Below, piece by piece: positions 5,115 through 5,756 of a stretch of DNA of 36,169 nt. The translations under genes were made by a program, and so were the position numbers. The notes below the pieces were generated by a model, which saw only the letters and a list, made by a program, of their open reading frames with translations, was not told where the DNA came from and searched no databases. The stretch is from Salinivirgaceae bacterium. GTDB lineage: Bacteria; Bacteroidota; Bacteroidia; Bacteroidales; SZUA-534. The DNA lies in assembly GCA_030620515.1 (NCBI GenBank), contig JAUXEM010000013.1, positions 1 through 36,169 on the forward strand, in the 5' to 3' direction. Position 1 is the stretch's first letter, and every line of letters begins with the position of its first letter.

Positions 5115-5378
5115 CTAGTTTAAACAGATTCTAAATAAGGGGGGTAGTTTTTGTTTGTTATTTTCTAAAATAGTATAGCTTCCTCTTTGTCGGCAGAAAG
5201 GTATTTTTACACCTAACACTTGTTCTATTTTCTTTTTATGCGCGCTTAACCTTCTTGAGCTAATTTTCATTCGCTTAGCAAAGTCATTGCGGCTGCCAGT
5301 ATTCTCTAGGCTAAGCTCCATAAGTATTCTAAGTGTGGTTTCTGAGCTTTTTAAGTCTTCCATATTGGTGTTTTTCAT
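5115..5378 (-). CDS. Small helix-turn-helix DNA-binding protein
   Basis: The 87-aa product is made up mostly of a predicted winged or simple HTH (TLRILMELSLENTGSRNDFAKRMKISSRRLSAHKKKIEQVLG, roughly residues 15-58) followed by a possible wing (IPFCRQRGSYTILE). It should bind DNA as a dimer. It is the first gene of the minus-strand run encoding four exported proteins, 79 bp before the tail-fibre gene, so it may regulate that operon. An internal Met6 (MEDLKSS) is an alternative start. A perfect TAnnTTTG box lies about 80 bp upstream. The exact family is not recognised and the target is inferred from position. Confidence 0.75.
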   Translation of the reverse strand: MKNTNMEDLKSSETTLRILMELSLENTGSRNDFAKRMKISSRRLSAHKKKIEQVLGVKIPFCRQRGSYTILENNKQKLPPLFRICLN

Positions 5379-5457: not shown

Positions 5458-5465
5458 CAAACATA
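5458..5465 (-). promoter_or_regulatory. Bacteroidota -7 box for the HTH/secreted-protein operon
   Basis: On the minus strand this reads TATGTTTG, a perfect match to the Bacteroidota -7 consensus TAnnTTTG, giving a leader of roughly 70 nt before the HTH gene. The region where a -33 element would lie is occupied by the end of the mobile element at 5477-5732, and no TTTG is seen there. Confidence 0.5.
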
Positions 5466-5476
5466 AAAACTATAGT

Positions 5477-5732
5477 AGGGCTTGCTGAAAAAGTCAGAAG
5501 TGATTTAGCTACAAACATAGCAAGACGTAGATGTATTAATATACTTCGAGTCGCAGATAGTGAAGTAGATGAATCACTTCTGACTAACATATTAGAATAT
5601 AAAATAAGGAAAAATTGTAAAAAGAGGTGCATGGGAATTGGTAAAATATCATAAGAAACCTTGCACCTAAAGATTGAAAAGTCTTTGTAACTAATTGAAT
5701 TTATATGATGTATGTGTTTTTCAGCAAGCCCT
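5477..5732. mobile_element. MITE-like element with terminal inverted repeats and internal hairpins
   Basis: A 256-bp non-coding element bounded by perfect 16-bp terminal inverted repeats (AGGGCTTGCTGAAAAA and TTTTTCAGCAAGCCCT). ATAGT lies directly outside both ends (5472-5476 and 5733-5737), consistent with a 5-bp target-site duplication; the match extends to the 9-mer CTATAGTAG if it is allowed to overlap the repeat ends, so the exact duplication length is ambiguous. Inside, GTCAGAAGTGATT (5493-5505) pairs perfectly with 5572-5584 around an imperfect longer stem, and AGGTGCATGG (5625-5634) pairs 9/10 with CCTTGCACCT (5659-5668). No ORF of useful length exists. It looks like a non-autonomous derivative of an insertion sequence, mobilised in trans. 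The parent family cannot be named from sequence alone. Confidence 0.85.
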
Positions 5733-5756
5733 ATAGTAGTTTTGTAGACAGGAGAT

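Follow-up and report, generated by a model that had tools for sequence, protein, structure and literature searches.

Bacterial MITEs are usually seen as passive deletion products, with stem-loops that arise from their inverted repeats. Transcripts of MITEs have been described as stable stem-loops, and regulatory roles have been raised for them (review, PMC10969869). The BOX, RUP and SPRITE elements of Streptococcus pneumoniae are, like the element studied here, small interspersed repeats and have been proposed to be MITE-like with structured transcripts; these sources do not describe them as a single structured core common to two transposase families (PMC3049150, PMC10969869). BrickBuilt and MITE239/464/700 of Porphyromonas gingivalis are, as is our element, Bacteroidota MITEs with IS5-family-like ends, and long stem-loops have been predicted for BrickBuilt, but their TIRs (GAGACC..., ACGTC...) are different and the stem-loop comes from tandem direct repeats (PMC4596501).

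The ISs and MITEs of the IS5 type NF033578 (transpos_IS5_1) agree with our element in the TIR GGG[CT][CT]TGCTGAAAA, the TANNTA TSD, the leader hairpin TGCAAGG...CCTTGCA and the existence of non-coding derivatives of about 200–310 bp. Unlike the full-length IS5_1 ISs and the cyanobacterial MITEs, however, our element holds a covarying structured module in its left part. Literature searches, which subscription papers mostly lay outside, returned no published description of this module, and this is weak evidence of novelty; the TIR sequences, searched as words in papers, led to no mobile-element paper. What appears to be new here, as judged from sequence comparison, is a strand-specific conserved fold common to MITEs of two transposase families.

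An IS5-type miniature element and its parents

The window, the whole 36,169-nucleotide stretch of a Salinivirgaceae contig that was analysed, carries the element at positions 5478–5731, 254 bp in length and free of genes. Its two TIRs, GGGCTTGCTGAAAAA, at 5478–5492 (+ strand) and 5717–5731 (− strand), match over 15/15 bp; with up to two mismatches allowed, the TIR pattern occurs only twice in the window, both times exactly, against an expectation of 0.19. Copies of the 7-bp TSD TATAGTA, of the TANNNTA class, flank it at 5471–5477 and 5732–5738. The conserved GTC after the left TIR identifies this as the end located, in full-length ISs, downstream of the transposase gene, and the right TIR is the transposase-upstream end, the one with the ...ACACATA side. 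No ORF of at least 80 aa is found inside the element and an intact transposase ORF is absent, so this is not an autonomous IS5 element; no promoter was identified within it. When the whole element is folded as RNA, the + strand reaches −85.5 kcal/mol, shuffled sequences averaging −44.5 (z −10, 0/200), and the − strand is less extreme at z −7.5. Two hairpins stand out, at 5492–5585 and about 5625–5668.

The initial annotation had described a MITE-like non-coding unit with TIRs, direct repeats and two hairpins, and all of this is present where it was placed; its view of the interior as unusual and perhaps able to make a stable RNA is supported in so far as the interior is indeed unusual and RNA-like. 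The TIRs are indeed perfect, but the proposed 256 bp and 16-bp repeats were slightly too generous, the sixteenth base being the outer A/T of the TSD. A sequence with only one copy, or the lack of any IS with matching ends, would have spoken against the same annotation, and neither is the case: related copies occur in the source genome and in its relatives, and full-length ISs exist.

One of the latter, L091, measures 1,694 bp, shares the ends and has TAATTA as its TSD; it encodes a 491-aa transposase of the IS5 family (NF033578, 438.7 bits with a cut-off of 275). Among the Bacteroidota, full-length ISs at two loci (L149, L150) have the same ends and exact TANNTA TSDs, and two further full-length elements (L152, L154) have the same ends. 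At L149 and L150, the transposase start falls within or next to a hairpin with the pattern AAGTGCAAG...CGTGCAYC. By comparison with L091, L149 and L150, hairpin 2 of the window element, AGGTGCAAGG...CCATGCACCT at about 5625–5668 on the − strand, is recognizable as a relic of this transposase-start hairpin of a full-length IS5_1, without the gene.

The source genome, a draft of 3.93 Mb in 319 contigs, contains six copies of the hairpin-1 module described below, the window copy included, plus fragments; the copies are diverged and fall into two sequence types. A complete copy with 79% identity is present in another genus of the same family (G001), at a different site and with a TSD of its own, TACTTA. 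A scan of our genome collection with the left end gave at least 115 stretches, mostly from filamentous cyanobacteria and some from Cyclobacteriaceae; among the matches listed, the copies with both ends are mostly non-coding and 200–300 bp long. Of the 71 copies examined with both ends, 60 have an exact TSD of 6 or 7 bp: 56 of 6 bp, with 55 of these being TANNTA, and four of 7 bp, TANNNTA, the class of the window copy. The IS5-type MITEs of Okeania, Trichodesmium and Nostocales (L031–L145) are very abundant and have TANNTA TSDs and a different, GGGAGTAGGGA-rich interior, which may have a conserved structure of its own. One draft genome, G108, holds 13 near-identical full-length module copies in different places, several of them with exact TANNTA TSDs, and elements with the module have thus moved recently; a search of the draft for an IS5_1 transposase with such ends found none. 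Neither was an NF033578 transposase found in the source genome, where repeats may be missing from the draft, and the window copy is therefore probably immobile today. With IS5-family TIRs, a TSD of the parental type, a short length without transposase and dispersed copies, the element is an IS5-derived MITE, and we regard it as practically certain that it is an IS5-type MITE, an ordinary kind of element.

The conserved fold of hairpin 1

Hairpin 1 (5492–5589, + strand) starts directly inside the left TIR and makes up a module of ~97 nt, consisting of P1 with 16 bp, a 2x2 loop, P2, a 3x2 loop and the apical stem GAUGUAU-UAAU-AUACUUC. When eight Bacteroidota copies are aligned by sequence only, 95.8% of the cells pair in the consensus fold and double-sided changes are seen at 22 of the 33 pairs; with the partners slid by 1–3 columns as a control, pairing falls to 30–39%. 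A larger alignment of 39 sequences has changes on both sides at 31/33 pairs; as it was fitted to a covariance model, the covariation among the eight sequences, which were not structure-aligned, is the cleaner result.

The fold also has a direction. The + strand folds better in 39/39 copies, the consensus energy of the eight sequences being −38.6 kcal/mol versus −18.0 for the reverse complement, and 21 columns have more G-U pairs than A-C mismatches, with the reverse in three. A symmetric DNA palindrome gives no reason for such an asymmetry, and the selected form should thus be a single strand, either RNA or ssDNA. G-T pairs are tolerated in ssDNA too, and with DNA folding parameters the + strand is better in 37/39 copies; these data therefore do not separate the two. 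Judging from the alignments, it is very probable that selection maintains hairpin 1 as a single-stranded fold of one orientation.

Neither the element nor the module gave an Rfam match above the gathering score, and relaxed thresholds gave nothing credible. The 3x2 loop was considered as a kink-turn; this reading was dropped because C-G compensatorily replaces A-U just inside the loop. Some copies carry additional sequence. Those of the B type in the source genome (L015, L023, L226) have a further stem, about 20 nt long, inserted close to P2. In two other genomes, a short extra palindrome TCCGATAGCTATCGGA (G045; L174, L185, L191) or an extra GCTATGCGTTGAGCTTGTCGAAA (G731; L235, L241) separates the TIR from the module or takes the place of part of P1, and in both the module core is left undestroyed.

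Carriers of the module

A covariance model built from eight IS5-type copies (R1) located the module in 6/148 relatives, and a broader model (R2) in 14/344 genomes of the order; in an even draw of 396 genomes across the phylum, the latter recovered it only in the source genome, and the distribution is thus patchy. The module is also known from five contigs of Cyclobacteriaceae (L036, L045, L095, L102, L127), with Indibacter alkaliphilus and Arthrospiribacter ruber (L036 and L102) among the hosts. Viral contigs, phages and plasmids, scanned by BLAST and for exact motifs, did not contain it. A weak partial match to the module core, 42 nt at 25.7 bits (E 0.011), lies beside an IS5-type end in a Lentisphaeria contig (L136:61-102), possibly a distant version of the module in another phylum. 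Apart from this match, the module was absent from all full-length ISs searched and from the cyanobacterial MITEs that share the ends, and it is thus not needed for IS5 transposition.

Trained on IS5-type copies only, R1 nevertheless matched five places in genome G071, the best with an E value of 1.7e-6 under rough calibration, and these matches sit in a different, abundant MITE with the ends TTAACCCGCATTATTCAT, of which the genome has 121 end matches. The ends resemble those of two IS1380-family elements of the same genome (L222, L223), one of which, L222, is assigned to the family with 338 bits and has ends matching at 15/18. A second genome, G667, also has the module in an IS1380-type MITE. 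The IS1380-type MITEs of both genomes share with the window element the core GAAGCUGUAU...AUACUGC but differ in their unrelated TIR (TTAACCCGCATTATTCAT or TAACCTGAATAATTCAT) and in the outer sequence of P1. When the core common to the IS5- and IS1380-type copies was aligned directly, 0/20,000 shuffles were as good, and in both types of carrier the module is located just inside one end, the left, and in the same orientation. The 3.5-Mb G071 assembly (loci L192–L221) has about 60 copies of the IS1380-type MITE, many of them at contig ends, and internal deletions have removed the module from some.

We suspect, although only tentatively and with somewhat more doubt than confidence, that hairpin 1 represents a new class of structured RNA, a module moving between the IS5- and IS1380-type non-autonomous elements of Bacteroidota and advantageous to them.

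Possible roles of the module

Our best overall reading, which we consider probable but far from secure, is that of an IS5-type MITE with a strand-specific structured module that acts as RNA for the element. A non-autonomous miniature element of the IS5 family (NCBIfam transpos_IS5_1 type) was inserted at a TANNNTA site, probably moved by a transposase provided in trans; its right third is the part of the parent IS that leads into the transposase, and the window copy would now be immobile in its own genome. The module RNA would be produced by read-through of flanking transcription and could form a compact helix stacked on a TIR:TIR stem. It might serve the element by protecting or processing the transcript, or by binding a factor that aids persistence or movement. 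That the module acts as RNA is, on the sequences available, rather more probable than the contrary. Service to the element rather than to a host gene is, in our judgement, the most likely role, although with no better than even odds; it is suggested because the carriers are MITEs whose transposases belong to two unrelated families and because, among tandem genes, the module does not favour either orientation.

The strongest rival, which we nonetheless consider unlikely, is that the module works as ssDNA, with the + strand folding in replication or transposition and being bound by the transposase or a host factor. The position immediately internal to a TIR, seen in both families of elements, would suit such a role, as does the tolerance of G-T pairs in DNA that lies behind the 37 copies folding better on the + strand with DNA parameters. 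On the other hand, the full-length ISs and the cyanobacterial MITEs with the same ends do without the module, which moreover has several internal loops that are conserved and, like its purine mismatches, resemble RNA motifs. The substrate of IS5 and IS1380 transposases is, furthermore, double-stranded ends, and a folded single strand fits this poorly.

Still less probable is a plain deletion MITE in which hairpin 1 is a functionless, accidental palindrome and the arms are kept paired by template-switch correction. Stable stem-loops are common in MITEs (PMC10969869), and hairpin 2 is just such a simple relic of an IS leader. Correction of one arm by the other would, however, yield perfect palindromes without strand preference, whereas hairpin 1 retains particular internal loops and mismatches, and every copy folds better on the same strand; the core is, moreover, present also in the IS1380-type MITEs. 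We thus disfavour the arm-correction reading of hairpin 1.

Similarly improbable is a cis element useful to the host, such as a terminator, an mRNA stabiliser or a UTR element, that is kept in particular positions. A simple ORF rule called both neighbours for 38 copies, and 17 of these are found between convergent genes, more than one in four (p 0.008), but such an excess would also result from purifying selection against insertions in promoters. Tandem contexts are split into 8 '++' and 7 '--' cases and, with the low power of 15 informative cases, do not point to selection of the module on the sense strand of host transcripts; hairpin 1 also has no T-run after it.

The last alternative, a highly improbable one, comes from the initial annotation, which held that the insertion had replaced a −33 box and might so have silenced or rewired the adjacent operon. 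The gene adjoining the element (5115–5378, − strand) encodes 87 aa and has distant homologues in the source genome (C294, C262) and in four relatives. A TAnnTTTG match, TATGTTTG, does exist as a candidate −7 box of this gene at 5458–5465, 12 bp from the element and on the correct (−) strand, but the motif is near chance frequency, with 35 occurrences along the − strand over the whole 36-kb window, about one per kb. When the empty site is rebuilt by joining the flanks, the best −33 match to TTTG at a spacing of 17–23 is 2/4, poorer than the 3/4 of the occupied site (TTTC/TTTT, from the TIR), and TAnnTTTG is absent upstream of the clearly read homologues in three relatives (L246, L247, L249); neither replacement of the box nor silencing or rewiring of the operon is supported. 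The homologues of three relatives have in common an upstream motif, TTTTTGSAATTAATA, that is absent at the 87-aa gene of the window.

Overall, a fold maintained by compensatory change on one strand and common to carriers whose ends and transposases are unrelated would mean that a non-coding module is itself an object of selection and passes from one mobile element to another. If hairpin 1 is indeed a structured RNA that travels in this way, it would be an RNA-based aid to parasitic elements and not a by-product of deletion. The use of the module to its element would become testable, and the covariance-model signature would help in finding more of its carriers.
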